A stretch of DNA of 64,000 bases. Origin: Mesorhizobium loti R88b. Its GTDB lineage: Bacteria > Pseudomonadota > Alphaproteobacteria > Rhizobiales > Rhizobiaceae. The stretch lies in NCBI RefSeq assembly GCF_013170845.1, contig NZ_CP033367.1, positions 2,853,001 to 2,917,000 on the forward strand. Direction: 5' to 3'. Below the pieces are notes generated by a model that ran no database searches, was not told where the DNA came from, and saw only the letters and a program-made list of their open reading frames with translations. The translations under genes and the position numbers were made by a program. Each line of letters starts with the position of its first letter. Positions within the stretch are counted from its first letter, which is position 1. This document shows, piece after piece, positions 5,953 to 32,765 of this stretch.

Positions 5953-5967
5953 TCAGTTCGCGACAAA

Positions 5968-6000
5968 CCGCCGGATTCTGACGGAATCCGGCGGTTTTTT
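5968..6000 (+). terminator. Rho-independent terminator/attenuator after the binding-protein gene
   Basis: Perfect 11-bp stem CCGCCGGATTC (5968-5978) / GAATCCGGCGG (5984-5994), five-base loop, then six T. It lies between the receptor gene and the ATPase gene of the same operon, so it probably lets receptor mRNA accumulate over transporter mRNA by partial read-through. Confidence 0.9.
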
Positions 6001-6061
6001 GCTGCACTGCGGCAATCTGGACTAGCATATTTCTCTTGAATTGGGGCAGACTACGCACAGC

Positions 6062-9427: not shown

Positions 9428-9751
9428 AATCGGCATCGGGAATGGCATCGGGCGGGGCAGGGATGGCCAGATGCCGCTGGGAAACACCGTCCCGCGATAG
9501 ATAATCAGCACAACGGCATTTTGAAGGTTTGCTGGCTTCTTGCCGTACCTCTGCCGCTTGCGGTCCTTTTGGCCGGAGTCCTCTGCTGGAGGTGTCGGCT
9601 TTTTTGTCTCGCCCTGGAACAGGCCTGATCTTTTCGTCCAGTTGAAGGAGATATCTTTTCGACCTGTGTACCAGGTGCCTGAGGCACCTGGGGTGCCTCA
9701 GGTAGCGCCCGAAATCATATTCAGCGTCAAAAAAGCGAAGCGGGATTGCGC
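9428..9751 (+). other. Intergenic region before the hydrolase/peptide-importer operon
   Basis: No supported gene. Around 9542-9607 an imperfect stem (GCCGTACCTC with GAGGTGTCGGC, large loop) followed by seven T could be a weak terminator for the acetyltransferase. Further on are the two alternative hairpins at 9671-9702, then the long palindrome at 9752. Confidence 0.45.
9671..9702 (+). repeat. Two mutually exclusive hairpins sharing one arm
   Basis: CCAGGTGCC (9671-9679) pairs with GGCACCTGG (9683-9691), while CCTGAGGCACC (9678-9688) pairs perfectly with GGTGCCTCAGG (9692-9702). The two stems compete for the same bases. This could be attenuator-like or simply a compound palindromic repeat. 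Confidence 0.6.
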
Positions 9752-9795
9752 CGCAAATGCTCTTGTTGTACGAACGTTCAACAAGAGCATTTGCG
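9752..9795. promoter_or_regulatory. 44-bp palindrome upstream of the CocE-type hydrolase (copy 1)
   Basis: Arms CGCAAATGCTCTTGTTG (9752-9768) and its exact reverse complement (9779-9795) flank a ten-base centre, TACGAACGTT, in which three further pairs match. It ends ten bases before the GTG at 9806. A second copy with the same core, CTTGTTG-(A/T)ACGA(A/T)CGT(A/T)-CAACAAG, lies at 21677-21718, nine bases before the start of the TMADH-like gene. Most likely an operator shared by both arms of the island, with the TetR product of 17248-17928 as candidate binder; an RNA hairpin role is also possible. Confidence 0.8.
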
Positions 9796-9805
9796 GGTAC
9801 CTGCC

Positions 9806-11815
9806 GTGGTACGAACCGAGTTTCCCGTTGCCGTCGAAACCGTCGATCCGCTGTGGATCACGCTGGCCGACGGCACCCGTATTGCCGCGACGCTGTGGCG
9901 TCCGCGCACCGAGGGCAAGGTGCCTGTCGTCGTCGAGATGGTGCCCTATCGCCGCCGTGACGGCACCGTTGCCCGCGACATCGACATCCATCCCTGGCTC
10001 GCCGGCCACGGCATTGCCTGCGCCCGCATAGACATTCGCGGCAGCGGCGATTCCGACGGTGACCTGGCCGACGAATATCTGCCGCGCGAACAGGAAGATG
10101 CCTGCGAGATCATCGCGCATCTCGCCGCACTTCCCTGGTGCAACGGCAATGTCGGCATGACCGGCATTTCCTGGGGCGGCTTCAACGCGCTGCAGGTCGC
10201 GGCGCGCCGGCCGCCGGCCCTGAAGGCGATCATCGCCAACTGCGCCACCGACGACCGCTACGCCGACGACATCCACTATATGGGCGGCGCGCTGCTGACC
10301 GAGCAGGAGATGTGGTCGAACTTCATGCTGGTGAAGAAGGCGATGGCGCCCGACCCGCAGATCGTCGGCGACGCCTGGCGCGCCATGTGGGAAAGCCGGC
10401 TTGCGGCGACGAGCTCGCTGTCGGAGGTCTGGCTCGCGCATCAGCGCCGCGACGATTACTGGCGGCAGGGCTCGGTCTGCGAGGATCATTCCGCGATCGA
10501 ATGCGCCGTCATGGCCGTCTGCGGCTGGGAGGACAGCTATTCCAACTTCGTGCCGCGCCTGCTCGAGCATCTGCCGGGGCCTAAGCTCGGCATCGTCGGG
10601 CCTTGGTCACATGCCTATCCCTGCCGCGGCGCGCCGGGGCCGCTGATCGGCTATCTGCAGGAGGTGCTGCGCTGGTGGCGTCACTGGCTCGTCGGCGAAG
10701 ACACCGGCATCATGAATGAGCCGCTCTACCGGGTCTGGGTGACGGGCGAGGAGCGGCCGCAGCCCTTCTATCTCCCCGACCATGCCGGAAGCTGGGCCGC
10801 CGAGGACCAATGGCCGTCGCCGCGCATCGAGCGCCGCGCGCTGCATCTGAACGCTGGCGGGTTGAGCAGTGAACCTGCACCGGGCGCGGTGCTTTCGGTA
10901 CAATCGCCCGCCACCGCCGGGCGCGATTGCGGCCGCTGGGGCGGCTATGGCGGCTCCTGTCCTGATATGCCCATCGACCAGCGCCGCGAAGACGGCATGG
11001 CGCTGTGCTTCGACACGCCAGCGCTCGACGACGACCTGATCTTGCTCGGCGCGGTTGAACTTGACCTACTCGTCAGCGTCGACCAGCCGCATGTCAATCT
11101 CGCCGCCCGGCTCTGCGATGTCTATCCCGACGGCACCTCGGCGCTGATGACCTATGGCGTGCTCAATCTCAGCCACCGCGACAGCCACGAGCACCCGACG
11201 CCGTGTCCCGTGGGAACGCCATTTCGCGTCAAGCTCAAGCTCAACGATTTCGCCCGCACGGTGCCCAAGGGCCATCGCATCCGGCTGGCGCTGGCCAACC
11301 AGCATTGGCCGATCCTGTGGCCGCAGCCGCATTTGTCGACGCTGTCGGTCGTAACCGGCGACAGCGCGGTGATGCTGCCGATGCGCCCGCCGTCACCTCG
11401 CGATCGCGACGTCCGCTTCGAGCCGGCCGAAACCGCGCCGCCGGTTCCGACCACGACATTGGACGAGGGATTTGATCGCCGCATCGTCACCGACGATGTC
11501 GGCTCGGGCGTGCAGACCATCGCGTTGAATTCAGACCATGGACGCCGGCGCTATGACGATCGCGCCATCACTGTCTCCTCGGCCAACAGCGACACGATGA
11601 GCATCAGCAGTGACGACCCGCTATCGGCAAAACTCGTCACCGAATATCGCTGGGCGATTGCCAGCGGCGAGGCCGACACCGAAGTGATCGCCGTGACCGA
11701 ACTGACGTCAGATGAAACGCATTTCAACCTGAGTTGGCGGCTCGAGGCGCGAGAACGGGGCACGCTCGTCCACAGCGCCTCGGCGACACGGCGCATCAGG
11801 CGCGATTTTGCCTGA
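9806..11815 (+). CDS. CocE/NonD-type (X-Pro dipeptidyl-peptidase S15 family) hydrolase
   Basis: Alpha/beta hydrolase of about 669 residues in the cocaine esterase / X-Pro dipeptidyl peptidase family, hydrolysing ester or amide bonds. The nucleophile is Ser122 in GMTGISWGGFNA; a likely acid is in VCGWEDSY and the His in GPWSHAYP. A C-terminal jelly-roll region (from about residue 330) carries the usual LDLLVSVDQPHVNLAARLCDVYPDG. The GTG at 9806 is preferred over a TTG at 9746 because the longer form would read through the palindrome, and because the start-to-palindrome spacing then matches that at 21667. No Shine-Dalgarno is evident. It leads a seven-gene rightward set with a peptide importer, suggesting an imported amide or dipeptide-like substrate. 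Confidence 0.88.
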   Translation: MVRTEFPVAVETVDPLWITLADGTRIAATLWRPRTEGKVPVVVEMVPYRRRDGTVARDIDIHPWLAGHGIACARIDIRGSGDSDGDLADEYLPREQEDACEIIAHLAALPWCNGNVGMTGISWGGFNALQVAARRPPALKAIIANCATDDRYADDIHYMGGALLTEQEMWSNFMLVKKAMAPDPQIVGDAWRAMWESRLAATSSLSEVWLAHQRRDDYWRQGSVCEDHSAIECAVMAVCGWEDSYSNFVPRLLEHLPGPKLGIVGPWSHAYPCRGAPGPLIGYLQEVLRWWRHWLVGEDTGIMNEPLYRVWVTGEERPQPFYLPDHAGSWAAEDQWPSPRIERRALHLNAGGLSSEPAPGAVLSVQSPATAGRDCGRWGGYGGSCPDMPIDQRREDGMALCFDTPALDDDLILLGAVELDLLVSVDQPHVNLAARLCDVYPDGTSALMTYGVLNLSHRDSHEHPTPCPVGTPFRVKLKLNDFARTVPKGHRIRLALANQHWPILWPQPHLSTLSVVTGDSAVMLPMRPPSPRDRDVRFEPAETAPPVPTTTLDEGFDRRIVTDDVGSGVQTIALNSDHGRRRYDDRAITVSSANSDTMSISSDDPLSAKLVTEYRWAIASGEADTEVIAVTELTSDETHFNLSWRLEARERGTLVHSASATRRIRRDFA

Positions 11816-11830
11816 GGGGAGGAGGAGACC

Positions 11831-12781
11831 ATGCTCGCATATGCAGTGAAGCGCATCGGTCTCGGCCTCCTGATCCTCATCCTCGTCATGATCGCCATGT
11901 ATGCGGCGGTCTTCCTGGTTCCCGGCGACCCGGCGACTGTCGCGCTCGGCCCGCGCGCCACGCCGGAACTGAAGCGGCTGCTGATCGAACGCATGGGGCT
12001 CGACCAGCCGGTGTGGTGGCAGATCATCGAATTCTTCCGCAACGCGCTGACCGGCAATCTCGGCTACGACGTCTGGTCGAACCGGCCGGTCTCGACGCTG
12101 GTGCTGGAGGCGCTGCCGAACACGCTGATCCTCGGCCTGACCGCGCTTGCCGTAGCTCTCCTCATCGGCGTGCCGCTCGGCTGCCTGTCGGTGATGCGGC
12201 GCGGCACGGCGGCCGATGCCGTCATCGGCGTGCTTTCGGTCGGCGTCATTGCCGTGCCGTCCTTCGTCGTCGCCATCTATTCGCTGCTGCTGTTTGCGGT
12301 CACGCTGCGCTGGCTGCCGGCGATCGGCGCCGGCGAGGCCGGCGACTTCGTCAGCCAGGCCAAGGCGCTGGTCATGCCGGCGGCGGCGATCGCGCTCGGC
12401 TGGATCGGCTACATCGCCCGCATGGTGCGCGCCTCGATGATGGAGGTGATGGGCGAGCCGCATATCCGCACGGCGCGCTCGTTTGGTCTGCCCGAGTGGA
12501 AGATCGTCTCCAAATACGCGTTGCGCATCGCCATCATCCCGACCATCTCGCTGGTCGCCGTCGGGCTCGGCAGCATCCTGTCCAGCGCCGTCTTCGTCGA
12601 GGCGGTGTTTGCTCGGCCCGGCATCGGCAAGCTGATCACCGACGCCGTCAATACCCGCAACTATCCGGTGGTCATGGGCACGGTGCTGATCATGACGGCC
12701 ATCTATGTCTCCATCACCATTGCCGCCGATCTGCTGATCGCGCGGCTCGACCCGAGGGTGCGCGATGTCTTCCGTGGCTGA
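11831..12781 (+). CDS. DppB/OppB-type ABC transporter permease
   Basis: Inner-membrane permease of 316 residues. The N-terminus MLAYAVKRIGLGLLILILVM is the standard first membrane helix of DppB proteins, and the conserved cytoplasmic loop with PGIGKLITDAV lies near the C-terminus. GGAGGAG at 11819-11825 precedes the ATG. The gene follows the hydrolase by 15 bases and overlaps the next permease by 17. With the DppC, DppD, DppF and binding-protein genes it forms a complete peptide/nickel-type importer. Confidence 0.95.
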   Translation: MLAYAVKRIGLGLLILILVMIAMYAAVFLVPGDPATVALGPRATPELKRLLIERMGLDQPVWWQIIEFFRNALTGNLGYDVWSNRPVSTLVLEALPNTLILGLTALAVALLIGVPLGCLSVMRRGTAADAVIGVLSVGVIAVPSFVVAIYSLLLFAVTLRWLPAIGAGEAGDFVSQAKALVMPAAAIALGWIGYIARMVRASMMEVMGEPHIRTARSFGLPEWKIVSKYALRIAIIPTISLVAVGLGSILSSAVFVEAVFARPGIGKLITDAVNTRNYPVVMGTVLIMTAIYVSITIAADLLIARLDPRVRDVFRG

Positions 12782-13652
12782 GGCCTCCCTGTCCACGCCC
12801 GATCGACAACGGTTCGCGCTGCTGCGCGCACTGCTTGCCGATCCGTTCACTTGCGTGGCGTTGATCCTGGTCACCGGCTTCCTCGTCACCGCTGTCTTCG
12901 CGCCGTTTCTGGCGCCCTATTCGCCGGTCAAGATCGACGTGCTGCACAAGCTGCAGCCACCATCGATGGAGCATTGGTTCGGCACCGATCATCTCGGCCG
13001 CGATCTCTTGTCGCGCGTTATCTATGGCGCGCGCACGGCGCTGACGATCGCCATCGTGTCGGTGGCGATTGCCGGCGCCATCGGACTGATCCTTGGTCTC
13101 ATCGCCGGCTACGGCCCGCGCTGGCTCGACGCCATCCTGGTGCTCAGTTTCGACAGCCTGAATTCGCTGCCGATGATCATGTTCGCGCTCGCCATCATCA
13201 CCGTGCTCGGCGCCGGCACCGGCACGCTGATCATCGTCATCGCCGCGACCTCATTCCCGAGCTATGCCCGGCTGATCCGGGCGCAGACGCTGGCGCTGAA
13301 GAACAGCGACTACATCCTCGCCGAGCGCCTGATCGATGCCAGTGCGGCGCGCATCATCTTCATCCATCTTCTGCCCAATGTGGTGGGACCGCTGATCATC
13401 CTTTTGTCGATGGACATTCCGGTCGTCATCATGGTCGAGGCTGGCCTGAGCTTCCTTGGCCTAGGTGTCCGGCCACCGACGCCATCCTGGGGCTCGATCC
13501 TCTATGACGGCTACACCTCGATCCGCTCGGCCCCCTTCATGGTCATCTTCGGAGGCCTGCCACTGGTGCTCGCCACGCTCGGCTTCACCTTTCTCGGTGA
13601 AGGCCTGCGCGACTATCTCGACCCACGGCTGCAATTGCGGAGGCCGGCATGA
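12765..13652 (+). CDS. DppC/OppC-type ABC transporter permease
   Basis: Second permease, 295 residues. It shows the DppC hallmarks: a first helix after a short cytoplasmic N-terminus, then HWFGTDHLGRDLLSRVIYGAR, and the loop AGLSFLGLGVRPPTPSWG near the C-terminus. The start lies inside the end of dppB-like gene (17-bp overlap) and its stop overlaps the ATG of the ATPase gene (ATGA), so expression is probably coupled. It partners the DppB-type protein in the membrane. Confidence 0.95.
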   Translation: MSSVAEASLSTPDRQRFALLRALLADPFTCVALILVTGFLVTAVFAPFLAPYSPVKIDVLHKLQPPSMEHWFGTDHLGRDLLSRVIYGARTALTIAIVSVAIAGAIGLILGLIAGYGPRWLDAILVLSFDSLNSLPMIMFALAIITVLGAGTGTLIIVIAATSFPSYARLIRAQTLALKNSDYILAERLIDASAARIIFIHLLPNVVGPLIILLSMDIPVVIMVEAGLSFLGLGVRPPTPSWGSILYDGYTSIRSAPFMVIFGGLPLVLATLGFTFLGEGLRDYLDPRLQLRRPA

Positions 13653-14614
13653 GCGGTTCACTCGCCGCCAGCGATCTCAGCGTCCGCTACGAGACGCCGC
13701 ATGGCGCGGTGCATGCTCTGCGCCACGTCGACATCGAGGCGCATCCGGGCGAGGTCATCGGCATTGTCGGCGAGAGCGGCTGTGGCAAGTCCACGCTGGT
13801 CACCGCTCTGGCCAATCTGTTGCCGGCTAACGCCCGCGTCGACGGATCGATCCGTTACAACGGCGTAGACCTGGCCAAGCTCGACGCGCACCGCCAGCGC
13901 CTGCTGCGCGGCGACGAGATCGCGCTGGTCAGCCAGGATCCGATGACGGCGTTCAACCCGGTGCTGACCATCGGCGACCAGCTCGTCGATTTCCAGCACC
14001 ACCGCAAGGACCTTGGCCGGGCGCAGAAGCGGGCGCGCATCGCCGCCATGCTTGGCCGCGTCGGCATCGCCGACGCCGAACGGCGCATGCAGAGCTATCC
14101 TCATGAACTCTCCGGCGGCATGCGCCAGCGCGTCGCCATTGCCGCCGCTTTGTTGACCGATCCCGGCCTGCTCATCGCCGACGAACCGACAACGGCGCTC
14201 GATGTCACCATGGAAGCGCAGATCATCCATCTGCTGCGCGAACTGCGGCGCGAGTATAACGGCATCATCATCGTCATCTCGCATCATCTCGGCGTCATCG
14301 CCGAACTCTGCGACCGGGTCTATGTCATGTATGCCGGCGAGGTGGTCGAAGGCGGCGAGGTCGACACCATCTTCCACGATGCGCGCCACCCCTATACCCA
14401 AGCGTTGCTCGCCTGCGACCCCGCCCGTTTCCATGAGCGGCTGGACAGGCTGCCGACCATTCCGGGCTCGTTGCCCAATTTGACCCAGCCGCCGTCGGGA
14501 TGCGTCTACGCACCGCGCTGCGACCGCGCCTTCGCACCGTGCGGCTCCATTGCTCCACCGCTGGTGAAACTCGCCGATGCCCATGTCGCGCGCTGCCATG
14601 CGGTGACGCCATGA
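13649..14614 (+). CDS. DppD/OppD-type ABC transporter ATPase
   Basis: ATPase of 321 residues. Walker A is GESGCGKST, the signature is [15 protein letters not shown], Walker B is [12 protein letters not shown]. The C-terminal oligopeptide-transporter extension carries the cysteine-containing segment [14 protein letters not shown], typical of the Fe-S-like cysteines in OppD/DppD proteins. Both ends overlap neighbours by four bases (ATGA), showing a tightly coupled operon. It would form a heterodimer with the DppF-type ATPase downstream. Confidence 0.95.
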
Positions 14615-15639
14615 GCCCGCTGCTTGCCGTGGAAGACCTCTCTGTGAGCTTCGCTCGTGGCGGCTTGCTCAACCGGCTGATCAATCCGTTCCCGCTGCCC
14701 GGCTTCAACGTCATCGACGGCGTGACGCTGTCGCTGATGCCGGGCGAGACGCTCGGGCTGGTGGGCGAATCCGGCTCGGGCAAGACGACGCTGGCCCGCA
14801 CCATCCTAGGCCTTATCAGGGCCGCCGCCGGCCGCATCATCTTCGAGGGTAGGGACGTGGCGACGCCTGCCGATTTCCGCGCCATGCGGCGGCGCTCGGC
14901 GATGATGTTCCAGGATCCGGTGGCATCGCTCAGCCCGCGCCTGCGCATAGGCACGCTGCTCACCGAACCGCAAATCATCCAGGGCCTGCCGATGCCGGAT
15001 CGCCGCGCTGCCGCCAAGGCACTGCTGGCGCTGGTCGGGTTGCCGGCCTCCTTCGTCGACCGCTTTCCGCACGAGCTGTCGGGCGGACAGGCGCGCCGCG
15101 TTGGCGTTGCGCGGGCTTTGGCAATGAAGCCGCATCTTCTGCTCGCCGACGAGCCGACCGCAGGCCTCGATGTCTCGGTGCAGGGTGATGTGCTGAACCT
15201 CATCGGTGAACTGAAGCGCGAGCTCGGTTTCGCCGCCATGATCGTCACCCACAACCTGGCGATGATCCGCCATGTCAGCGATCGGCTGGCCATCATGTAT
15301 CTGGGACGGCTGGTCGAGACGGGGCCGACGCAGGAGGTTTTCTCCGCGCCGATGCATCCCTATACCGCGACGCTGATACAGTCCGAGCCTATTCCCGATC
15401 CGCGCCGGCGCAGCCACAACCCTGCCGTCACCGGCGAGATCCCGAGCGTGTTCCGGCGGCCTTCGGGCTGCGAGTTTCACACGCGCTGCCCGATCGCGCG
15501 CGACCGTTGCAAGACCGAGGCGCCAGCCTATCGGCCGATGGGCGCCGATCGCATGGTGCGCTGCCATTTCCCGCTGGAGACAGGCGGGCAAGAACGGGAA
15601 GCCTTCTCACGTGCTTCCACAAATCAAAGGGGAAATTGA
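14611..15639 (+). CDS. DppF/OppF-type ABC transporter ATPase
   Basis: ATPase of 342 residues. Walker A is GESGSGKTT, signature LSGGQARRVGVARAL, Walker B LLLADEPTAGLD, then the C-terminal oligopeptide extension with CEFHTRCPIARDRC. ATG 14611 overlaps the upstream stop and starts at the family's usual N-terminus [14 protein letters not shown]; a longer in-frame reading would only overlap the DppD gene. The stop (15639) is one base before the ATG of the binding-protein gene, so all transporter genes read as one unit. Confidence 0.95.
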   Translation: MSPLLAVEDLSVSFARGGLLNRLINPFPLPGFNVIDGVTLSLMPGETLGLVGESGSGKTTLARTILGLIRAAAGRIIFEGRDVATPADFRAMRRRSAMMFQDPVASLSPRLRIGTLLTEPQIIQGLPMPDRRAAAKALLALVGLPASFVDRFPHELSGGQARRVGVARALAMKPHLLLADEPTAGLDVSVQGDVLNLIGELKRELGFAAMIVTHNLAMIRHVSDRLAIMYLGRLVETGPTQEVFSAPMHPYTATLIQSEPIPDPRRRSHNPAVTGEIPSVFRRPSGCEFHTRCPIARDRCKTEAPAYRPMGADRMVRCHFPLETGGQEREAFSRASTNQRGN

Positions 15640-15640
15640 C

Positions 15641-17203
15641 ATGACAGAATGGTCCATCAACAGACGTGCATTCCTGAAAGCGGCCGGCGCACTAGGCGCC
15701 GGCGTGGCGATGAAGCCGGGCTTTGCCTGGTCGGCCGCCGGCGACACGTTGCGCATTCGCATGGAGGGCGATCTGCAGTGCCTCGATCCGGCCTTCATGA
15801 ATGGCGGCATCGAGGATGTCATGATGCGCGGCATCTATGTCTCGCTCAACCATTTCGGCGACATCCGCAAGGGCTCGCCCTGGTCGCTGTGGGGCGCGGA
15901 AAAGCTTGAACAGAAAGACCCCAAGACCATCGCCTTCACGCTGATCGACGGGTTGAAATGGTCTGGTGGATTCGGCGCGGTCACCGCTGACGACGTAAAA
16001 TTCTCGTTCGAGCGCATCGCCGACAAGGCGCTGGCATCGCCGTGGGCCTACCAGTTCGAGAAACTCGATCGCGTCGAGGTGGTCGATGCGCGCAACGGCA
16101 TCATCCATCTGAAAGAACCCTACCAGCCGATCTTCGTCACCAGCCTGCCTTACTATGGCGGCCACATCATCAGCCGCGCCGGCACCGAGAAGGCGGGCGG
16201 CAAGTTCACCACGCAGCCGCCGGCGACCTGCGGTCCCTATCTCTTCTCGGACTGGCAGCAGAAGCAGAAGGTGACGCTGACCGCCAATCCGGATTGGCCG
16301 GGACCGAAGCCGGATTTCTCAAAGGTCGAAATCTATGTCGTGTCGGACGATCAGGCAGCGCAACTCGCCTACGAGGCCGATGCCTTCGACTACACCAAGA
16401 TCGCGATTTCGGCGACCAAGGCGGTCAAGGCCAGCCCACCCGCCGACACGACCCTGATCGAGGCGCAATCGACCCGCTATGTCTGGTTGACCATCAACAT
16501 GCTGAGCCCACGCCTCAAGGATTTGAAGGTCCGCCAGGCGGTGCAGTATGGCGTCGATGTCGGGCAGGTTCTCACCGGCGTTTATGACGACCTCACCAAG
16601 CGCTCCACCGGTGTCGTCCAGCCTGGCACGAAGTTCGCTCGTGCCAGCAATCTGATCGCGTCGCCCGACTATGAGAAGTCGATCGCGTTGCTTAAGGAAG
16701 CAGGTGTCGGCGATCTGTCGCTGACCTTGACAGTGATGAACGATTCCATCCGCACAGCCACAGCACAGATCATCCAGGCCAGTCTCGAACAGGCCGGCAT
16801 CAACGTCGAAATCCAGCCTTATGACGAGGCTGCCTTCTGGGGCGTTGGCGACAAGACGCAGGGCGATGGCTACAAGAATATCGACCTGGCGCTGATGGAT
16901 TTCGCCGGCGGCATCGATCCTTCCGAAAACCTGGTCTGGTTCCGCCCCGACCAGATCGGCGCCTACAATTGGTCCGGCTTCGACAGCCCCGAATTCGAGA
17001 CCAGCTACCAGCAATTGGTGGCCGAAAGCGACGATACCAAGCGCATCGCGCTGTCCAACCGCATGGAGGATCTGATGGAGCAGTCCGGCGGTTTCGTCTT
17101 CATCTGCCACCAGCCGCTGGTCGCCATCCACAAGACGGCTTTCGAGCCGGTCATCTATCCCGATGGCCATCCCAATCCGGTGCTGTTCAAGAAGAAGGCG
17201 TGA
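15641..17203 (+). CDS. Peptide-type (DppA/SBP_bac_5) substrate-binding protein, Tat-exported
   Basis: Periplasmic receptor of 520 residues, family 5 extracellular solute-binding protein. The N-terminus has a twin-arginine signal (INRRAFLKAAGALGAGVAM). AAAGGGGA lies eight bases before ATG 15641. Conserved features include the segment with FVTSLPYYGG, TCGPYLFSDW (the G-T/C-G-P-Y motif) and VRQAVQYGVDV. It delivers the ligand to the DppBCDF-type complex encoded upstream. The ligand could be a di- or oligopeptide or another amide or betaine conjugate; the hydrolase co-encoded in this operon would act on it in the cytoplasm. Confidence 0.94.
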   Translation: MTEWSINRRAFLKAAGALGAGVAMKPGFAWSAAGDTLRIRMEGDLQCLDPAFMNGGIEDVMMRGIYVSLNHFGDIRKGSPWSLWGAEKLEQKDPKTIAFTLIDGLKWSGGFGAVTADDVKFSFERIADKALASPWAYQFEKLDRVEVVDARNGIIHLKEPYQPIFVTSLPYYGGHIISRAGTEKAGGKFTTQPPATCGPYLFSDWQQKQKVTLTANPDWPGPKPDFSKVEIYVVSDDQAAQLAYEADAFDYTKIAISATKAVKASPPADTTLIEAQSTRYVWLTINMLSPRLKDLKVRQAVQYGVDVGQVLTGVYDDLTKRSTGVVQPGTKFARASNLIASPDYEKSIALLKEAGVGDLSLTLTVMNDSIRTATAQIIQASLEQAGINVEIQPYDEAAFWGVGDKTQGDGYKNIDLALMDFAGGIDPSENLVWFRPDQIGAYNWSGFDSPEFETSYQQLVAESDDTKRIALSNRMEDLMEQSGGFVFICHQPLVAIHKTAFEPVIYPDGHPNPVLFKKKA

Positions 17204-17247
17204 TCCCTTCCGTGGACAGGAAGGGCGCAATCGATTAGCTGAGGTCC

Positions 17248-17928
17248 ATGACGGAAGCCCAACCAGACGGTGCAAAAAGGAAGCGCGGCGCGAAGAAGGC
17301 TCCGCCGCGCTTCAGCCGCGAACAGGCTGACGTGCGCCGCTCCATGCTGATCGAAGCGGCGACGCGCTGCCTGTCGGTCGGCGGTATCGGCGCCTTCACC
17401 ATCGATCGCATCTGCAAGGAGGCTGGCGTCTCGCGCGGCCTCATCAACCACCATTTCGAAAGCCTCGACGGGCTGCTGGTCGAGGTCTACAAATCCTCGC
17501 TCTATGCCAGCGTCAACAACCAGATCGCCGAAGCCAAGCGCCGCCGCGCCGAAACATCGGACTGGTCGCCGCAGGCAGCCCTTGCCGCCCTGGTGCATTC
17601 CAACTTTTCACCGGAGTATTTCAGCCGCGAGAACCTGCTGATCTGGCTGTCGCTGTGGGGCGAGATCGCCGTCAATCCGCGCCTTAAGGCGGCGCACCGC
17701 GAACTCTACGATGCCTATCGGGCGGAGCTTGCCGAGGACATCGCCGCAGTCGCGGTGCCGCGCGGCAGGCACGTCGATGCTCCGGCGCTGGCCCGCAATT
17801 TCATCGCGCTTGTCGATGGGCTGTGGCTGGAGTGGTGTCTTGATGAAAGCGTTGTGACGCCACAGGGGGCGGAGGCGGCGGGGTTTGAGATGCTCGAGGC
17901 GCAGGTGGGGCCTTTGCGGGGCGAGTAA
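17248..17928 (+). CDS. TetR-family regulator, BetI-like
   Basis: Regulator of 226 residues. After a basic N-terminal tail, residues about 32-80 form the TetR helix-turn-helix (LIEAATRCLSVGGIGAFTID, then RICKEAGVSRGLINHHFES). The rest is a helical ligand-binding domain with FIALVDGLWLEWCLDE near the end, which resembles the BetI subgroup. It is the last gene of the rightward arm and faces the MttB-like gene. No other regulator lies inside the 9.8-26.5 kb island, so it is the natural candidate to bind the palindromes at 9752 and 21677. That link is inference. Confidence 0.9.
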   Translation: MTEAQPDGAKRKRGAKKAPPRFSREQADVRRSMLIEAATRCLSVGGIGAFTIDRICKEAGVSRGLINHHFESLDGLLVEVYKSSLYASVNNQIAEAKRRRAETSDWSPQAALAALVHSNFSPEYFSRENLLIWLSLWGEIAVNPRLKAAHRELYDAYRAELAEDIAAVAVPRGRHVDAPALARNFIALVDGLWLEWCLDESVVTPQGAEAAGFEMLEAQVGPLRGE

Positions 17929-17949
17929 CGATTGCAGGTCGGCGCTGCA

Positions 17950-17981
17950 CCCCCCTCTGCCCTGCCGGGCAGAGAGGGGGG
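17950..17981. terminator. Probable bidirectional terminator between convergent genes
   Basis: CCCCCCTCTGCCC pairs with GGGCAGA-GA-GGGGGG around a short loop (one two-base bulge). It lies between the 3' ends of the TetR gene and the MttB-like gene. There is no strong T-run, so factor-independent action is uncertain. Confidence 0.5.
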
Positions 17982-18017
17982 CTCGTGCTGACCTCGAAAA
18001 TCAGCTTCGCCCCCTCA

Positions 18018-19556
18018 TCAATTCAGCGGCGAACCGCCCTCGCGTTTGCGCCGCTCCATATAGTCGCGCAGCGCCTCGTCGATGCCGGGATCGATCGGCG
18101 GCTGTTCGTATTCGGCGACCATGCGCTTCCACACGACATTGGCGCGCTCGCGCGCGGTGACCTGGCCGCGCTCCATCCAGGTGTCGTAATTGTCCCAGTT
18201 GGACACCATCGGCGAATAGAAGGCGCGCTCGTAGCGCTGCATGGTGTGCGCGGCGCCGAAGAAATGTCCGGCCGGGCCGACCTCGCGCACCGCTTCCAGC
18301 GCCAGCGTGTCGATGTCGACCACCGGCGGGTCGAAATAGGCAGACATCATCTGCAGCATCTCGGCATCGATGACCAGTTTCTCGAACGACGCGGTCAGCC
18401 CGCCGCCGAGCCAGCCGGCGGCATGCAGCACGAGGTTGGCGCCACCCATCAGGCAGCCCCACAGCGACATGGCGCTCTCATAGGCGGCCTGCGCGTCGAC
18501 CGAATTGGCGGCGGTGACATTGCTAGAGCGGAACGGCACGCCGATCAGCCGGCAGAGCTGCCCGGTGATCTGCGCGGCTTGCGTGTATTCGGGCGTGCCG
18601 AAGGCCGGCGCGCCGGTCTTCATGTCGACATTGGATGTGAAGCCGCCATACATCACCGGCACGCCGGGGCGCACGATCTGCGTCAGCACGATGCCAGCCA
18701 GCGCCTCGGCATGCTGCTGCGACAGTGCACCGGCAAGCGTCACCGGGCTCATCGCGCCGGCCAGTGTGAACGGCGTGATGACATTGACCTGGCCGTGCTC
18801 GGCCAGCGTGATCAACCCCTCCGCCATCGGTTCGTCGAGCTGCAGCGGCGAATTGGTGTTGATGATGCCGGTGAAGACCGGCATTTCCCGCGCCAGCTTC
18901 TCGCGCGTCGTGCCGAGCGAAATCGCCACCATTTCCAGCGCGTCGGTGGCACGACCCCGGCCAAGGGTTTGCGGTTGCCAATTCTTGTCGAGCAAGGTGA
19001 TCTCGGCGTAGTAGAGGTCGAGATGGCGGGTGTTCTGGTGCAGGTCGAGCGGCTCGAACGGTCCGCCGCCTTCCTGATGCAGCACGTTGAACGACTGGAT
19101 CAGCTTCAAATAATCGCACATCTCGGCATAGGTGCCAGGGCGGCGTCCCTTATCATTGTCCATGACATAGGCCGGACCGCCGACCGACGACAGGATGCAG
19201 TGCCGTCCACCGACCTTGACGTTCTTCGCGGGATTGCGGGCGCGCAGCTCGAACGATGACGGCGCCATGGCGACCCGCTCCATGACCATGGCGCGGTCGA
19301 AGCGCACACGCATCTCGCCTTCGTCGATATCGCAGCCGGCCGAGCGATAGAACTGCCGCGCCTGCGGCTGCAGCACGCGCATGCCGATCTCTTCGAGAAT
19401 GGTGAGGCCCATTTCGTGGATCGTCTGGACCTGGTCGGCCGACAGGATCTCGATCGGCGCATAGGGACGTGTCAGCTGCTTCCAAGGCCGCTGCTCGATG
19501 CCGCCGATCTCGCGTTGCGGACGGCCGGGTCTGCGACGTGCAGCGATACGCTCCAT
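18018..19556 (-). CDS. MttB-family (trimethylamine methyltransferase-like) protein, non-pyrrolysine
   Basis: Methyltransferase of 512 residues in the MttB superfamily, which transfers a methyl group from quaternary or tertiary amines to a corrinoid protein. The frame has no internal amber codon, so it belongs to the non-pyrrolysine branch that includes glycine betaine:corrinoid methyltransferases. Family-like segments include ILSADQVQTIHEMGLTILEE, the central VMYGGFTSNVDMKTGAP and the Gly-rich GGANLVLHAAGWLGGGL. AGGAGAGG precedes the ATG, and it follows the TMADH-like gene by eight bases. No corrinoid-protein or activase gene is in the window, so partners must be elsewhere. The substrate is unknown; a methylated amine or betaine is likely. 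Confidence 0.88.
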   Translation of the reverse strand: MERIAARRRPGRPQREIGGIEQRPWKQLTRPYAPIEILSADQVQTIHEMGLTILEEIGMRVLQPQARQFYRSAGCDIDEGEMRVRFDRAMVMERVAMAPSSFELRARNPAKNVKVGGRHCILSSVGGPAYVMDNDKGRRPGTYAEMCDYLKLIQSFNVLHQEGGGPFEPLDLHQNTRHLDLYYAEITLLDKNWQPQTLGRGRATDALEMVAISLGTTREKLAREMPVFTGIINTNSPLQLDEPMAEGLITLAEHGQVNVITPFTLAGAMSPVTLAGALSQQHAEALAGIVLTQIVRPGVPVMYGGFTSNVDMKTGAPAFGTPEYTQAAQITGQLCRLIGVPFRSSNVTAANSVDAQAAYESAMSLWGCLMGGANLVLHAAGWLGGGLTASFEKLVIDAEMLQMMSAYFDPPVVDIDTLALEAVREVGPAGHFFGAAHTMQRYERAFYSPMVSNWDNYDTWMERGQVTARERANVVWKRMVAEYEQPPIDPGIDEALRDYMERRKREGGSPLN

Positions 19557-19564
19557 AACCTCTC

Positions 19565-21667
19565 CTATTCAGCAGCTGTGCGCATATCGAAATCCGCCAC
19601 CGCATCGACGATCGACGTGTCGCGGCGGTAGGGCCGCACGTGGATTTCTGCACCGATCTCTCGCGCAAGCTTGTGGCCGCTGTGCACGGCATGGGCGATG
19701 GCGCCGGGCGCCAGCGTGTCGCCGATGCGATCGACGCTGCGGATGCCGGCAGCGGTGAGCGCCTCCGCGCGTTCCGTCAGCGCCTCGAACAGCTCGTTGC
19801 GCGGCAAGCGCAGCCCGACGATCAGCACCGAGCGGCAGGCGATGAGGGTCTCCTCGCCGGTGAACAGATGCGCCAGCGTCGCCGTCTCGCCGTCGAAGGA
19901 TTTCAAGAGATGCAGCGTCGTTACCGGCACCTTGCGCCGCGCCAGCGCGCGATGCACCAGCGGCAGCTCGTTGGTCATGATCGTCCAGGCCGACGCCTGG
20001 CCTGCCGGGGTCACGTAGCTGACCGGAATACCCTGCGCGGCAAGATGCTCGGTCAGCACGCCGCCCATGTAGTAATTATCGAAATCGAAGACGAGTGTTG
20101 GCCCTTGCGGAAGCCGACCGGCGGCGATGTCGTCGGGCGTGAACACTTCCGGGTGGTCGAGCCGGCCGACCGGAATCTCCATCGAGGAATAGAGCATGTT
20201 GGTCCAGCGCGCGCCGGTGGCCAGCACCACACGGTCGGGCGCCAGATCGATGATCTCGTCAACGCCCAACGCACTCTCGGGGTAGAGCGAGACATTGCTC
20301 ATCTCGCCGAGGCGGCCGAGACGGTAGTCGACGACCCGGTTCCACGCCGACAGGCCGGGCAGGGTCTTCTCGAAGGTCAGCCGTCCGCCAAAGTTGCGGC
20401 TTTTGTCGGCGAGCATCACTTCATGGCCGCGACGGCCAAGCGTCAGTGCGCATTCGAGCCCGGCCGGTCCGCCGCCGACGATCAGGATGCGCTCCGGTCT
20501 GTCGGTACGGTCGGTGCGTTCGGGGTGCCAGCCGCGCCGCCATTCCTCGCCGGCGGTCGGGTTCTGCGTGCAGCGCACCGGCACGCCGTCATGCCAGCTC
20601 GAAATGCAGATGTTGCAGCCGATGCATTCGCGGATTTCGGCCTCGCGGCCTTCGCGGATCTTGGCCGGCAGGAAGGGGTCGGCGATCGAGGGACGCGCGC
20701 CGCCGATGAAGTCGAGCACGCCGCGTTTGATCTGCGACACCATCGTGTCGGGCGAGGTGAAGCGGCCGACGCCGACCACCGGCTTTTTGGTCAGCGATTT
20801 GACGAAATCGATGACCGGCTCATGGCTGCCTTCGCCGGTGAAGCGCGACGCCGAACAGTCGGTCGGGCTGGAATCCATCTTGACGTCGAACAGGTCAGGC
20901 AGGTCGGCCAAAAGCTCGATCAGTTCGTGCGCTTCCGAGGGCTGGTTGCGGCCGGGCCGGCCGCGCAGTTCTTCGAGACTGACCCGCAAGGCGACGCCGC
21001 AATCCTTGCCGACGGCATCCTTGGTGACCTCGATCATCTCGCGCACGAAGCGCACCCGGTTCGCGATCGGTCCGCCGTATTCGTCCGAGCGGTGATTGTA
21101 TTCGGGCAGCAGGAATTCGTAGCCGAGATAGCCCATGCCGGCATAGACGTAGACCACATCGAAGCCGGCCGTGCGCGCCTTGCGCGCCGCTTCGGCCTGG
21201 CACCGCAGCACCTCGCGGATATCAGCCTTGTCCATGGTCTTGGGCCGCAGATTGCCCATGAAGCCGACATGGGTGGCCATCCAGGGAATTCCCGACGGTG
21301 ACAGCGGCGGCAGGCGGCTGGTCCTGTTCATGACGGATGCGCCGCCGTGCCAGAGTTCCACCCCTGCAAGCGAACCATGGCGGTGCACGGCCTCCGTCAT
21401 CAGCGCATGGGCGCGGATGTCATTGTCGTCCCACAGCGTGGCGAAAGGGAGCGGCGCGTCGTCCGAGCTCGGATCGATCGAACAGGCGCCGGTGCAGATC
21501 ACCCCCCAGCCGCCCTCGGCCTTGGCTTCGCGAAAGGCGGCGCGGACGCGCGGCAGCGCGTTGGTCATGCCGCTTGCATGCGGCACCTGATAGAAGCGGT
21601 TCGGCGCGGTGACCGGCCCGATCCGCATCGGCTCGAACAGGATTTCGTAGCGGGGATTGCATGTCAT
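19565..21667 (-). CDS. Trimethylamine-dehydrogenase-like FMN/4Fe-4S/NAD(P)-fold oxidoreductase
   Basis: Flavoprotein of 700 residues with the layout of trimethylamine/dimethylamine dehydrogenase: an Old Yellow Enzyme-like FMN barrel (about 1-340), a 4Fe-4S site (C348, C351, C354, C366 in CIGCNICISSW and VRCTQNPTAGEEW), then nucleotide-binding domains (ILIVGGGPAGLECALTLGRRG). Compared with trimethylamine dehydrogenase as I recall it, the Cys that bonds FMN (PHC) is replaced (PHA, A31), Tyr60 of the aromatic bowl is Ala, Trp264 has no match, and only Trp355 remains (W358). Substrate choice has therefore probably changed, perhaps to an N-methyl amino acid or betaine product. The start follows the palindrome by nine bases. 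Confidence 0.9.
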   Translation of the reverse strand: MTCNPRYEILFEPMRIGPVTAPNRFYQVPHASGMTNALPRVRAAFREAKAEGGWGVICTGACSIDPSSDDAPLPFATLWDDNDIRAHALMTEAVHRHGSLAGVELWHGGASVMNRTSRLPPLSPSGIPWMATHVGFMGNLRPKTMDKADIREVLRCQAEAARKARTAGFDVVYVYAGMGYLGYEFLLPEYNHRSDEYGGPIANRVRFVREMIEVTKDAVGKDCGVALRVSLEELRGRPGRNQPSEAHELIELLADLPDLFDVKMDSSPTDCSASRFTGEGSHEPVIDFVKSLTKKPVVGVGRFTSPDTMVSQIKRGVLDFIGGARPSIADPFLPAKIREGREAEIRECIGCNICISSWHDGVPVRCTQNPTAGEEWRRGWHPERTDRTDRPERILIVGGGPAGLECALTLGRRGHEVMLADKSRNFGGRLTFEKTLPGLSAWNRVVDYRLGRLGEMSNVSLYPESALGVDEIIDLAPDRVVLATGARWTNMLYSSMEIPVGRLDHPEVFTPDDIAAGRLPQGPTLVFDFDNYYMGGVLTEHLAAQGIPVSYVTPAGQASAWTIMTNELPLVHRALARRKVPVTTLHLLKSFDGETATLAHLFTGEETLIACRSVLIVGLRLPRNELFEALTERAEALTAAGIRSVDRIGDTLAPGAIAHAVHSGHKLAREIGAEIHVRPYRRDTSIVDAVADFDMRTAAE

Positions 21668-21676
21668 CAGGGCTTC

Positions 21677-21718
21677 GCGAATATGCTTGTTGAACGATCG
21701 TACAACAAGCATATTCGC
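21677..21718. promoter_or_regulatory. 42-bp palindrome upstream of the TMADH-like gene (copy 2)
   Basis: Arms GCGAATATGCTTGTTG (21677-21692) and its exact reverse complement (21703-21718) flank AACGATCGTA, which is itself palindromic except for its outermost pair. The inner 24 bases match copy 1 at 9752-9795 except at three A/T positions. Relative to copy 1, four pairs in the outer arms differ, and each change is matched on the opposite arm. It ends nine bases before the start codon of the leftward gene and lies 98 bases or more downstream of the hydroxyacid dehydrogenase gene. Confidence 0.8.
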
Positions 21719-21815
21719 TGATATGGCAGAACGCAATGGCCCAAAGCACCGGGACAGTCGGAGGCCCGAAAAAGCAGTGAACGTGCGATGGATACTGGGC
21801 TGATGCGTGGCCTTG

Positions 21816-29553: not shown

Positions 29554-30648
29554 TTAACCCCGCTTGCCGCTGGCGGCGCCGGTCACGCGCACGATCCTGG
29601 CGCCGCCGCGCGAGGCGACCAGCAGATCGTCGCCCGTCTCGCAGGCGCTGACCGTGCCGTGCACCGTGCCGTCGGCGCGCGAATGGAAACTCGACAGCGG
29701 TTTCATGTTCTGGTCGCAATGCACCACCAGCCCGTAGGACCGGGTGACCGCGTAGGGCTTGAGCACATTCATCTGCTTGAGCTGGCTGCCTTGCATCGGC
29801 TCGCGGTAATCGCGCCATGAACTCAGCGACGGCGCCATCCAATAGGCTTCCGGGACTTCGGCCAGCATACGCTTGCGGTAGGTCTCTTCGCGCAGGATGA
29901 ATTCCACCAGCTGGTTGCGGACGGAATAGAAGGTCAGCCAGTAGCCGGCATTGAAGGCGGGCGCGATGCGGGCGGGATAGGCTGGCAGATGTTCCAGCAC
30001 CGGCGCCGTTGCCCTGGTGGCGAGGTCGATCGCCAGCACGCGGTGGACCCAGGCTTCGGTGACGTAGATGCGGTTGGAGCCGGTGGTGGCGATGCCGGCG
30101 GGCCAGGCGAGGCCGTCGCGGATCAGCTCCAGCCGGCCGCTCTTGAGGTCGAGACGCCAGAGCGAACCGGAAGCGTTCTTCTGCATCAGGTCGCGGCGCC
30201 AGCCGCTTGCCGGCAGCGAGGCCGAGCCATTGGCGATCAGCAGGCTGTTGCTGTCGAGGAAGGTGAGGGCGGTGATGCAGGAGAGCCGCAGCGCCTCGTC
30301 GCCCGTCGCTTCGCGCCCGTCATGCAGGCCGCCCCGTATGACGACGCCCTTGCCGTCGATCGCGATCGCCGTCATGCCGCGGGCATGGGCAAGCGCGGTG
30401 ATCTCGCCGGGAAACTCCTGCAGCACCTCTGCCTGGGCCTCAGTGCCGAAACGCATCAGCGAAGCGGCGCTGCTCGCCAGCACGCCCTTGTCGGTGCGCA
30501 CGAGATTGTCGGCGTCGGCGAGGCTGGCAAAAGTCTCGGCTTCCTCGAGGCCCTGGTTGGGCAGCAGGGGGCCGTCGAGCGTCGGCACCGTCACCGCCCA
30601 GTCGCCACGGCCGAGAAAACGGTCGAAAAACTGGCTCACGGCGCTCAT
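29554..30648 (-). CDS. SMP-30/gluconolactonase/strictosidine-synthase-like beta-propeller protein
   Basis: Protein of 364 residues. Segments such as GEITALAHARGMTAIAIDGKG, LAWPAGIATTGSNRIYVTEAW and the repeated short blade motifs point to a six-bladed beta-propeller lactonase or esterase-like fold. The ATG at 30648 overlaps the stop of the permease-fusion gene by four bases (ATGA). No signal peptide is apparent, so it is probably cytoplasmic. It resembles the C-terminal half of the protein encoded just upstream, so the operon carries two related propellers. A lactone intermediate of sugar oxidation is the likely type of substrate. Confidence 0.8.
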   Translation of the reverse strand: MSAVSQFFDRFLGRGDWAVTVPTLDGPLLPNQGLEEAETFASLADADNLVRTDKGVLASSAASLMRFGTEAQAEVLQEFPGEITALAHARGMTAIAIDGKGVVIRGGLHDGREATGDEALRLSCITALTFLDSNSLLIANGSASLPASGWRRDLMQKNASGSLWRLDLKSGRLELIRDGLAWPAGIATTGSNRIYVTEAWVHRVLAIDLATRATAPVLEHLPAYPARIAPAFNAGYWLTFYSVRNQLVEFILREETYRKRMLAEVPEAYWMAPSLSSWRDYREPMQGSQLKQMNVLKPYAVTRSYGLVVHCDQNMKPLSSFHSRADGTVHGTVSACETGDDLLVASRGGARIVRVTGAASGKRG

Positions 30649-32765
30649 GCCTTTTTGCCCCAGTAGGAGTCCGAGCTGAACCAGGTCTGGTCGACACCCT
30701 TCAAGGGCAAGGTGCCCATACGGTTGTTGAAGATGCCGCAGAGATAGAGCACGCCCTTGTGCTCGCGCATCGAGGTGATCATCGGATGTTTTTCGCCGGC
30801 GCGGTCCCACAGACTTTCGAGGATCTGGCCGTTCTCGTCGAAGCGCAGCACGCAGCCGGTGTTGAGGTTGGGCATCAGCCAGGCATCTTCCGAGACGCGC
30901 CGCGCCATGCGGCGGCGGAAGCCCGGCATTTCCAGCGAGAGATCCAGCGCCGGCGTGCGCATGCCCATCAGAGCCAGCCAATAGGTCCCGTCCGAGGCGC
31001 GGTTGATGTTGTCGGGATAGCCGGGCAGGCCCTCGATGACGCGTTCGACCTTGCCCTTCTTGGGACCGTCGAAATAGTAGCGGCTGATGCGGCAGGCCCA
31101 GCTTTCGGCGAACAGCACGGACTGGCCGTCGAAGGCCGTGCAGATGCCATTGGGGAAGACCAGGTTCGACAGCAGCGTGTGGGTCGAACCCGATTTCGGG
31201 TCGTGCACGATGATGCGTCCGTTGCCGCGACTTTCCAGGGCATCGGCGTACCAGTCGTGCATTTCGAAGCGCACGGTGGCTTCGGAGAAGACAATGCGGC
31301 CGTCCGGAAGGATGTCGCAATCGTCGGCGAGCTTCATGGTCGAGTCGTCGACGACCGAGGTCAGCGAGCGGTTGGTCTCGGCGGTCAGCAGCTTCACCGC
31401 GCCGTCCGGTGCCACGCGGTAGAGACCCATTCCGGCGACGCAGATGACCAGATTGTCGTCGCGGTCGAAGGCCATGCCGAGCGGCGAGCCACCAATATGG
31501 GCGAACACTTCACTCTCAGTATAATGCGGCGGCTGGAAGCGCAGGATGTCGCCCTGGCGGGTGCCGGTGTAGAGCCGGTCCTTGCGGTCGAAGATGACGT
31601 CCTCGGCGCCGTCGAGGACACCAAGGCCGATGACGCCGACATCCTTCAGCCGGTCGTTCACGGCGATCGGCGTGCCTGGCGCGGTGGAGATCGGCTCGCG
31701 CATCTTGGCGAAGGTCGGCGAGATGTAGACGCTGCGCAGGATCTTGTGGCGGTTCTTCACCCAGCGCACGTCGAGCAGGACCGAGAAAAGCAGCACGAGG
31801 CCGAGGATCAGGGAGTTGACCGGGCCGGACACGGACAGAGCGAGCAGGCTGTTGGACAGGATGAGCACGAAGATCGTGCCCATCAGCGCCTTGGCGACCG
31901 AGCCGCGCCCGCCGCCCAGCGAGATGCCGCCGAGCACGGTCGCGGTCAGCACCTGCAGTTCGAGGCCGGTGCCGATATCGGAAGCAGCGCTGCCGATGCG
32001 GGCCGAGAAGAAGAAGCCGGAGAGCGCGACCAGCACCGAGCAGATGACATAGGCGCTGAACAGTGTGAAGCGCACATTGATGCCGGCGTTGTAGGCGGAG
32101 CGGCGCGCGCCGCCGACCGCGAACAGCCGCCAGCCATAGCGGGCGCGCGACAGTACGAGGTGGATCACCAGCGCGATGACGGCGAAGACGACGAAGGAGG
32201 TCGGCACGCCCCAGACCGTGCCGAAACCGAGGAAATCATAGGTCGGTGAATTGGGGCCGCTCGTGACGATCGGTGTCGAGACCTGCGGGAAGATGACGTC
32301 GAAGGTCGAGCGGTAGATGATGAGCGTGACCAGCGTGGTCAGGAAGGCCCGCATGCGCAGGAAGCCGACCAGGAAGCCGTTGATGGCGCCACAAACGACG
32401 CCAAGTCCAAGGCAGGCCAGCAGGCCGGTGCCGAAACTCCATTGCCCGACATTCATGCCGTAGAGCGTCACCAGCACGGCCAGCGCGAAGGTCGAGCCGA
32501 CCGAAAGATCGATGCCGCCCGAGACCATGACGATGGTCATGCCAAGCACGACCAGGCCAAGCTCGGCGGTCTGGCCGCTGAGGTTGGTCAGCGTCGCAAC
32601 GCTCCAGAAGCCCGGCACGATCGAGCCGAAGATCACGCACAAAATGATCAGCGCCGTGAAGGGGATGACGCTATCGATCCACTTCTTGGTGAGAATCTCC
32701 CCGACCACGTGGTCGGGGAGCAAGCGGTAGCGCCAGCGTACAAGGCTTTCGGCCATGCTCATCAA
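30645..32765 (-). CDS. ABC sugar permease fused to SMP-30/gluconolactonase-like domain
   Basis: Protein of 706 residues with two parts. Residues 1 to about 338 are an RbsC-type permease with multiple membrane helices and the family motif VMVSGGIDLSVGS, plus TATVLGGISLGGGRGSV. Residues about 345-706 form a beta-propeller of the SMP-30/strictosidine-synthase type (VFAHIGGSPLGMAFDRDDNL, ESWACRISRYYFDG, LPGYPDNINRASDGTYW). No stop or frame change separates the halves. The C-terminal end of an RbsC permease is normally short and cytoplasmic, so the propeller would sit at the inner membrane face, linking uptake to lactone hydrolysis. Start 32765 or 32756. Confidence 0.88.
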   Translation of the reverse strand: MMSMAESLVRWRYRLLPDHVVGEILTKKWIDSVIPFTALIILCVIFGSIVPGFWSVATLTNLSGQTAELGLVVLGMTIVMVSGGIDLSVGSTFALAVLVTLYGMNVGQWSFGTGLLACLGLGVVCGAINGFLVGFLRMRAFLTTLVTLIIYRSTFDVIFPQVSTPIVTSGPNSPTYDFLGFGTVWGVPTSFVVFAVIALVIHLVLSRARYGWRLFAVGGARRSAYNAGINVRFTLFSAYVICSVLVALSGFFFSARIGSAASDIGTGLELQVLTATVLGGISLGGGRGSVAKALMGTIFVLILSNSLLALSVSGPVNSLILGLVLLFSVLLDVRWVKNRHKILRSVYISPTFAKMREPISTAPGTPIAVNDRLKDVGVIGLGVLDGAEDVIFDRKDRLYTGTRQGDILRFQPPHYTESEVFAHIGGSPLGMAFDRDDNLVICVAGMGLYRVAPDGAVKLLTAETNRSLTSVVDDSTMKLADDCDILPDGRIVFSEATVRFEMHDWYADALESRGNGRIIVHDPKSGSTHTLLSNLVFPNGICTAFDGQSVLFAESWACRISRYYFDGPKKGKVERVIEGLPGYPDNINRASDGTYWLALMGMRTPALDLSLEMPGFRRRMARRVSEDAWLMPNLNTGCVLRFDENGQILESLWDRAGEKHPMITSMREHKGVLYLCGIFNNRMGTLPLKGVDQTWFSSDSYWGKKA

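Follow-up and report, generated by a model that had tools for sequence, protein, structure and literature searches.

Two convergent gene arms, each headed by a long palindrome

The window, by which we mean the whole 64,000-nucleotide stretch of Mesorhizobium loti R88b DNA that was analysed, holds two long palindromes, A and B, each situated 5' of the first gene of one of two convergent gene arms. Arm A runs from a hydrolase through an importer to a TetR regulator, and arm B consists of a TMADH-like gene followed by an MttB-like gene. The genes, the palindromes, and the core that the palindromes share are located as follows (taxa are those of the gene tree described further below):

9751..9796, plus strand: palindrome A, 5' of the CocE-type hydrolase gene, with orthologous sites in relatives
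9762..9785, plus strand: putative 24-bp operator core of site A, near-invariant in 38 taxa
9806..11815, plus strand: CocE/NonD-type hydrolase, first gene of arm A
11831..17203, plus strand: peptide-type ABC importer of arm A (two permeases, two ATPases, binding protein)
17248..17928, plus strand: BetI-type TetR regulator, final gene of arm A (PF00440 and PF13977 above cut-off)
18018..19556, minus strand: MttB-like methyltransferase, second gene of arm B (PF06253; nearest solved chains)
19565..21667, minus strand: TMADH/histamine-dehydrogenase-like flavoprotein, first gene of arm B
21677..21718, minus strand: palindrome B, 5' of the TMADH-like gene, with orthologous sites in relatives
21686..21709, minus strand: putative 24-bp operator core of site B, conserved in 38 taxa

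Among the 19 inverted pairs listed for the window (arms of at least 14 nt, at most 60 nt apart), palindromes A and B are the longest near-perfect ones. The arms of A (9751-9772 and 9775-9796) are 22 nt long, pair at 21/22 positions (95%), and are separated by a 2-nt spacer, and those of B (21677-21697 and 21698-21718) are 21 nt long and pair at 20/21; by our arithmetic, the chance of 20/21 pairing is ~1.5e-11 per position. Read in gene orientation, the 24-base core is CTTGTTGTACGAWCGTTCAACAAG. Its two copies are identical at 23/24 positions, the exception being one central base (A or T), and in both sites all of the core is paired apart from one fixed position. Both palindromes stop nine bases 5' of a start codon that is kept in relatives, GTG at 9806 for A and ATG at 21667 (minus strand) for B. 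Exactly four arm pairs, at outward positions 1, 2, 3, and 7, are not the same in A as in B, and all four are compensated; the arm triplets read GCT/AGC at A and ATG/CAT at B.

An earlier note, made from the sequence of this locus, had described two near-perfect palindromes with a common 24-base core that end nine or ten bases 5' of the first-gene start codons and differ in four compensated outer pairs, all of which is borne out here. Palindrome A, which it had given as 44 bp (9752-9795), is present as described but extends by one pair more at each end. The note had also placed a single TetR gene between two opposite-facing arms. The two arms stand, but they are convergent, and the gene for TetR, at 17248-17928, is not free-standing: it closes the hydrolase/importer arm. 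The hydrolase and TMADH-like genes stand back to back in seven distant loci (L041, L043-L046, L050, and L051), so the two-site layout may have originated by the split of a divergent unit.

The arm B enzymes are matched by solved chains of MttB-like glycine betaine methyltransferases and of TMADH/histamine dehydrogenases; the MttB-like protein scores below the cut-off for pyrrolysine MttB. One report describes an mttB of Mesorhizobium alhagi that is strongly up under salt and a mutant of it without a salt phenotype (PMC4302635).

Some relatives vary in the composition of arm B. The TMADH-like protein of L019, L028, L033, and L034 is only ~53% identical to that of the window and adjoins an MttB-like protein that is 93-95% identical; L112, grouped with these four at site B, likewise has a TMADH-like protein of only ~53% identity. 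As the predicted operator is kept in all five, the enzyme has apparently been swapped under the same switch. L017 has ~3.2 kb extra between the TetR and MttB-like genes (10753-13662), comprising a gene of LysR type along with two frames for which Pfam gives no match, and similar spacing is found in L019 and L026. L016 has a GGGAAAACCG-like palindrome between its TMADH-like and MttB-like genes, around 12276.

Elsewhere in the window, a second, weaker palindrome of the GGGAAAACCG type (47747-47792; 72% complementary) lies upstream of the gene at 46288-47592. A hairpin with 19-nt arms (89%) at 5960-6002, directly 3' of a frame ending at 5952, is terminator-like in appearance. One frame (30645-32765, minus strand) joins branched-chain-type permease and strictosidine-synthase-like domains, and a gene for a Rieske-type ring-hydroxylating oxygenase alpha subunit (60960-62021, plus strand) directly follows two branched-chain-type permease genes.

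The core and its candidate regulator in Mesorhizobium and beyond

Allowing up to three mismatches, the 24-bp core occurs at only two places in the genome (chromosome of 7,207,166 bp). We surveyed 146 Mesorhizobium genomes for exact or one-mismatch copies of the inner core, GTTGTACGNNNGTTCAAC, and for the locus TetR at E up to 1e-40. The inner core was found in 50/146 genomes and the TetR in 40/146; all 40 of the latter have the core, which is exact in 38 and has one mismatch in two (G368 and G425). Exact matches fall at 63 places by our count, in 38 genomes, all encoding the locus TetR. The remaining 10 genomes with a core hit have one-mismatch matches only and lack the TetR, and five TetR genomes have an additional one-mismatch match elsewhere; the reversed pattern, a control devoid of this role, is commoner than these stray one-mismatch matches. 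In 40/40 stretches from the other 39 TetR genomes, the core lies directly 5' of the CocE gene, the TMADH gene, or both. A search of related genomes, proposed in the earlier note as a check on whether the core clusters at orthologues, has thus placed it at the orthologous hydrolase start, the TMADH-like start, or both in all the stretches from TetR genomes. With this co-occurrence and positioning, the two-armed TetR regulon that the note had put forward is well supported at the level of genome comparison.

A family-wide pattern search gave matches in 3/297 genomes, our own genome included, and an order-wide TetR search at E up to 1e-60 gave 5/397, of which three are outside the family. These three genomes, from two other families of the order, have a TetR of 51-67% identity together with cores, which precede the TMADH-like gene in two genomes and CocE in one. 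For the five cores in the three extra-family stretches, only two to six of the first nine arm positions match. Three distant rows (L051 at A; L046 and L051 at B) are below the core-match limit.

The locus TetR has a TetR_N helix-turn-helix (PF00440, 46.1 bits, cut-off 24), and its AlphaFold model (mean pLDDT 87), all-helical and with a ligand domain of the TetR type, finds TetR-family chains as its structural matches. Structures near the model include 4kwa (with choline), 4nel (with a ligand whose name we read as 'N,N-dimethylmet...'), and 8svd, a TetR-family dimer-of-dimers with DNA. Taken with the arm B enzymes, the ligands of 4kwa and 4nel would fit a methylated-amine inducer.

The regulator can be compared to BetI, the choline-responsive TetR-family repressor, with which it has the BetI-type C-terminal domain (PF13977) in common. 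The E. coli K-12 betI-betT gap contains a related sequence, TTGATTGGACGTTCAA, that has 12/14 positions in common with the core but is without long symmetric arms. Unlike BetI, the locus TetR scores below the cut-off of the BetI equivalog NCBIfam TIGR03384 (92.8 bits against 201.3), has different predicted target genes, and carries a basic N-terminal arm. Two other genes of its own genome are above that equivalog cut-off, and the 3.5-4 kb around them contain no motif match of at least 11/14; the motif is therefore not simply that of every BetI. No BetI operator paper was among the literature matches listed. The core is most likely the operator of the BetI-like TetR of this locus, as judged from comparative sequence data.

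The same genome has another BetI-like TetR below the BetI cut-off (L134, C1:1718252-1725480). A TTGAACGGACATTCAA site lies ~6.6 kb away from it, between two divergent frames and without exact long arms, and a weaker site stands before the adjoining gene.

Covariation and turnover of the palindrome arms

Orthologous sites were compared on a gene tree of 38 taxa, obtained from 60 loci holding CocE and a TetR >70% identical, with 22 loci that were >99.95% identical to another merged. Some loci are listed but stand outside the tree counts, since CocE or TetR is absent in the stretch (e.g. L013, L023, L037, L038, L060/L090, L084/L126, L115, L122, L124, and L125). Site B of L007 was read from L097, another contig of presumably the same genome. 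Information is high in the core and in a TTGC box (see below), a separate peak lies 16-18 bp from the centre, and the other arm positions vary. The separate peak corresponds to A/T triplets at these positions:

9756..9758, plus strand: left A/T triplet AAT of site A, 16-18 bp from the centre (84-97% A/T, 38 taxa)
9789..9791, plus strand: right A/T triplet ATT of site A (87-97% A/T, 38 taxa)
21680..21682, minus strand: A/T triplet in the downstream arm of site B (87-97% A/T, 38 taxa)
21713..21715, minus strand: A/T triplet in the upstream arm of site B (89-97% A/T, 38 taxa)

Among the 15 distant site rows, by our reading, none has A/T at all three right-arm positions 4-6. In Mesorhizobium TetRs, the helix-turn-helix is preceded by a basic stretch (KRKRGAKK or similar), and residues 1-17 of the locus TetR are disordered, with low model confidence. 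Relatives at ~50% identity or less are mostly without the basic stretch in the frames read, for which the start codons are uncertain. In the repressor SimR, an N-terminal extension contacts the minor groove; the locus TetR likewise has a disordered basic extension along with a conserved flanking A/T triplet. The basic arm and the triplet are perhaps related, the two being linked here by correlation only.

The covariation of the compensated outer arms is real. At each of arm positions 1-3, 4-6, and 7-9, there are more matched cells than in any of 5000 shuffles (64 distinct arm pairs, kinship ignored by the shuffles), and positions 10-14 have no excess matching, their level being reached in 841/5000 shuffles. 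The test over orthologous sites that the earlier note had suggested thus finds covariation beyond every shuffle at positions 1-9 and not beyond. Arms that are fully symmetric (9/9) occur in 16/38 taxa at A and 14/38 at B, as compared to 0.2 and 0.5 fully symmetric taxa under independent drift on the tree from a symmetric ancestor, which reached the observed numbers in 0/400 runs. Counts of distinct symmetric forms, reached by chance drift in 12/400 runs (A, triplets), 20/400 (B, 9-mers), and 148/400 (B, triplets), are less decisive than these counts of symmetric taxa, above all at B. At the other end of the range, the arms match at no more than 4/9 positions in 9/38 taxa at A and 5/38 at B; symmetry is therefore dispensable.

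Arm changes, inferred by parsimony on the gene tree, fall in bursts, some of which rewrite one arm to match the unchanged other. On the stem of the window clade (branch 0.016), site A has three right-arm changes, all restoring pairing, and none in the left arm. At site B of L091 (branch 0.031), 3/3 right-arm changes restore pairing and the left arm is unchanged; compared to its sister L017, this locus has three right-arm differences and one leader difference in ~104 positions, which is the most striking of 28 comparisons (14 pairs, two sites) and not a test by itself. The ~4 changes at site B of L035 are all repairs, on a long branch (0.108). In the L022 clade, both arms of site B have been replaced (15 changes in 18 positions, branch 0.060), and six pairs changed on both sides are still paired. 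The L010-type clade changed 9/18 positions of site A on a branch of 0.015, for which, however, parsimony gives only one pair kept and one repair. Pairing-breaking bursts also occur, in L008 at A (~8 changes, 0 repairs) and in L025 at B (~8, 0), and a one-sided intermediate, as expected from stepwise compensation, is present in L094 at A. Tree-wide, repairs amount to 0.46 (A) and 0.55 (B) of the changes at mismatched pairs. The corresponding values are 0.21-0.35 when the pairing is slid and 0.24-0.41 in the flanks, so that the bias is moderate. Recombination between strains could mimic the bursts.

Changes are also seen at the centre of site B, where the core is reversed in L009, L031, and L105 (two point changes would look alike) and the core centre is fully symmetric in L022, L026, and L030. 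Two further candidates were set aside: L098 as a copying junction, dropped as a single later change on the tree, and L008 at site A as an intermediate, not used as proof because it sits inside a clade.

Arm copying at quasi-palindromes is a described mutation process, in which template switching homogenises several bases of an arm and possibly inverts the centre (PMC7202029, PMC8604942, PMC8794818). Arm homogenisation as described for the known systems (E. coli lacZ reporters, yeast inverted repeats, and RNA genes) is likewise seen here; the difference is that we invoke the process for the flanks of a repressor's putative operators. Among the literature matches listed, no title or abstract opening concerned template switching at repressor operator flanks.

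Six symmetric arm triplets occur across the sites, and A and B carry different ones although a single protein would serve both; the covariation at positions 1-3 is therefore not accounted for by base contact. The earlier note had argued that a simple contact-based operator would not require compensated changes, and it was right in this for arm positions 1-3 and 7. It had asked for a structural role to be considered alongside TetR binding; arm copying likely explains the compensated changes better than selection for pairing does. We tentatively propose, as a claim on which the balance is still close, that template switching keeps rewriting the operator flanks. Entire arms would then change at a single stroke and still mirror each other, and symmetry and covariation would be a mutational product, tolerated because a basic N-terminal arm needs only minor-groove A/T.

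The best-surviving alternative is an extended operator, in which the full 42-46 bp would be required by a pair of TetR dimers, or by a single dimer that makes additional contacts; affinity selection would then keep the symmetry, with the compensated changes arising as adaptive steps one after another. Several observations agree with this: the palindromes are amply long for two dimers, a dimer-of-dimers DNA complex (8svd) is among the structural matches, symmetry ends at about equal distance in different lineages, and the A/T triplet is kept at ±16-18. However, the triplet differs between the two sites of the single protein and takes six symmetric forms overall, so that no base preference accounts for positions 1-3; moreover, many taxa with an intact core and TetR have asymmetric arms, and several changes fall on very short branches. 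We therefore regard an extended operator as unlikely, although worth keeping in mind.

Promoters, transcripts, and the proposed switch

The conserved TTGC box upstream of site A, together with its counterpart at site B, allows putative promoters to be placed:

9746..9751, plus strand: putative -35 box TTGCGC of site A (TTGC in 38/38 taxa, at a fixed place)
9769..9774, plus strand: putative -10 box TACGAA within core A, 17 bp from the -35 box (TACGAA in 34/38 taxa)
21708..21713, minus strand: TATGCT, putative -10 box of site B, which overlaps the upstream palindrome arm and is spaced 17 bp from the -35 box (TATGCT in 29/38 taxa)
21731..21736, minus strand: putative -35 box TTGCGT of site B (TTGCG here in 33/38 taxa, one base off in three)

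At site B, L036 has a single such box, spaced as at site A, and L035 has both. In distant relatives, TTGAC lies within one base of the place of the site A box. A generic promoter scan found none at site A or site B, so the assignment of these promoters rests on conservation. With a fixed TTGC box 17 bp from the putative -10, the palindrome would lie over the -10 and the transcription start; the left arm would thus probably not be fully transcribed, which makes an RNA hairpin unlikely. If these promoters are right, the RNA starts no further left than the core, and the long hairpin cannot form in it.

An RNA hairpin in the 5' leader, hiding or exposing the start region, would account for the stem-like covariation and for the same distance to the start codon at the window's two sites, and the full palindromes do fold strongly as RNA (z -5.5 and -4.5), though this applies only if they are wholly transcribed. 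On the other hand, the TTGC box and putative -10 would mean that the RNA starts within the left arm or downstream of it, and RNA from the predicted starts has no more stable a fold than shuffled sequence (z +1.0 and +0.6). An Rfam search of the window gave 0 matches, and pairing has been lost in many relatives (the 9/38 taxa at A and 5/38 at B with no more than 4/9 matching arm positions). We consider such a hairpin improbable, and the same low probability applies to a supercoil-driven DNA cruciform that acts as a switch or is bound as such. The near-perfect long palindromes with their small spacer, and a sequence that varies while symmetry stays, would suit a cruciform; a pure shape signal would, however, have no need of a near-invariant core, and symmetric arms are dispensable across taxa. 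The structural role that the earlier note had raised, as RNA hairpin or cruciform, is accordingly not supported by the presumed place of the palindrome within the promoter, by the folding of the predicted transcripts, or by the many core sites without symmetric arms, and is less likely than an operator combined with arm copying. A dispersed REP/BIME-like repeat that landed twice would explain two places with similar sequence and can be rejected with hardly any doubt, as the core has just two places in 7.2 Mb at up to three mismatches, both at starts that are orthologous in relatives.

The reading that we favor, and hold to be fairly probable as a whole, is that of two TetR operators, each consisting of the core and its A/T triplets, with the other arm symmetry produced by template switching. 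It starts from the observed co-occurrence, position, conservation profile, covariation, and burst-like arm turnover, from which we infer binding and repression, the promoters, the ligand, the N-terminal contact, and template switching. The BetI-like TetR (17248-17928) would grip the 24-bp core at each palindrome as its operator, and as the core overlaps the putative -10 and start, bound TetR would block RNA polymerase at both convergent units. The importer may bring in a methylated-amine or betaine-like ligand, upon which the repressor would be released. The A/T triplet, 16-18 bp out on both sides of both sites, would probably be recognised through the minor groove, a contact perhaps made by the basic N-terminal arm, and exact mirror symmetry at the other arm positions would not be needed for binding. 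Template switching during replication of the quasi-palindrome would copy one arm onto the other, so that arms that differ between sites stay symmetric.

At heart the locus is ordinary, a TetR regulon with two predicted operators; it is the evolution of the flanks that is unusual, and it is well sampled. The locus, which has a single protein and two sites in each genome and is sampled across a tree of 38 taxa, offers a natural test case in which compensated base changes sit in probably largely untranscribed promoter DNA. If confirmed, the finding would call for caution against taking covariation as proof of RNA structure, and would provide a mutational route for operator divergence without loss of symmetry. 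For Mesorhizobium itself, the locus defines a conserved regulon in which a peptide-type importer is tied to MttB-like and TMADH-like enzymes, and which offers a testable class of inducers, presumably methylated-amine or betaine-like.
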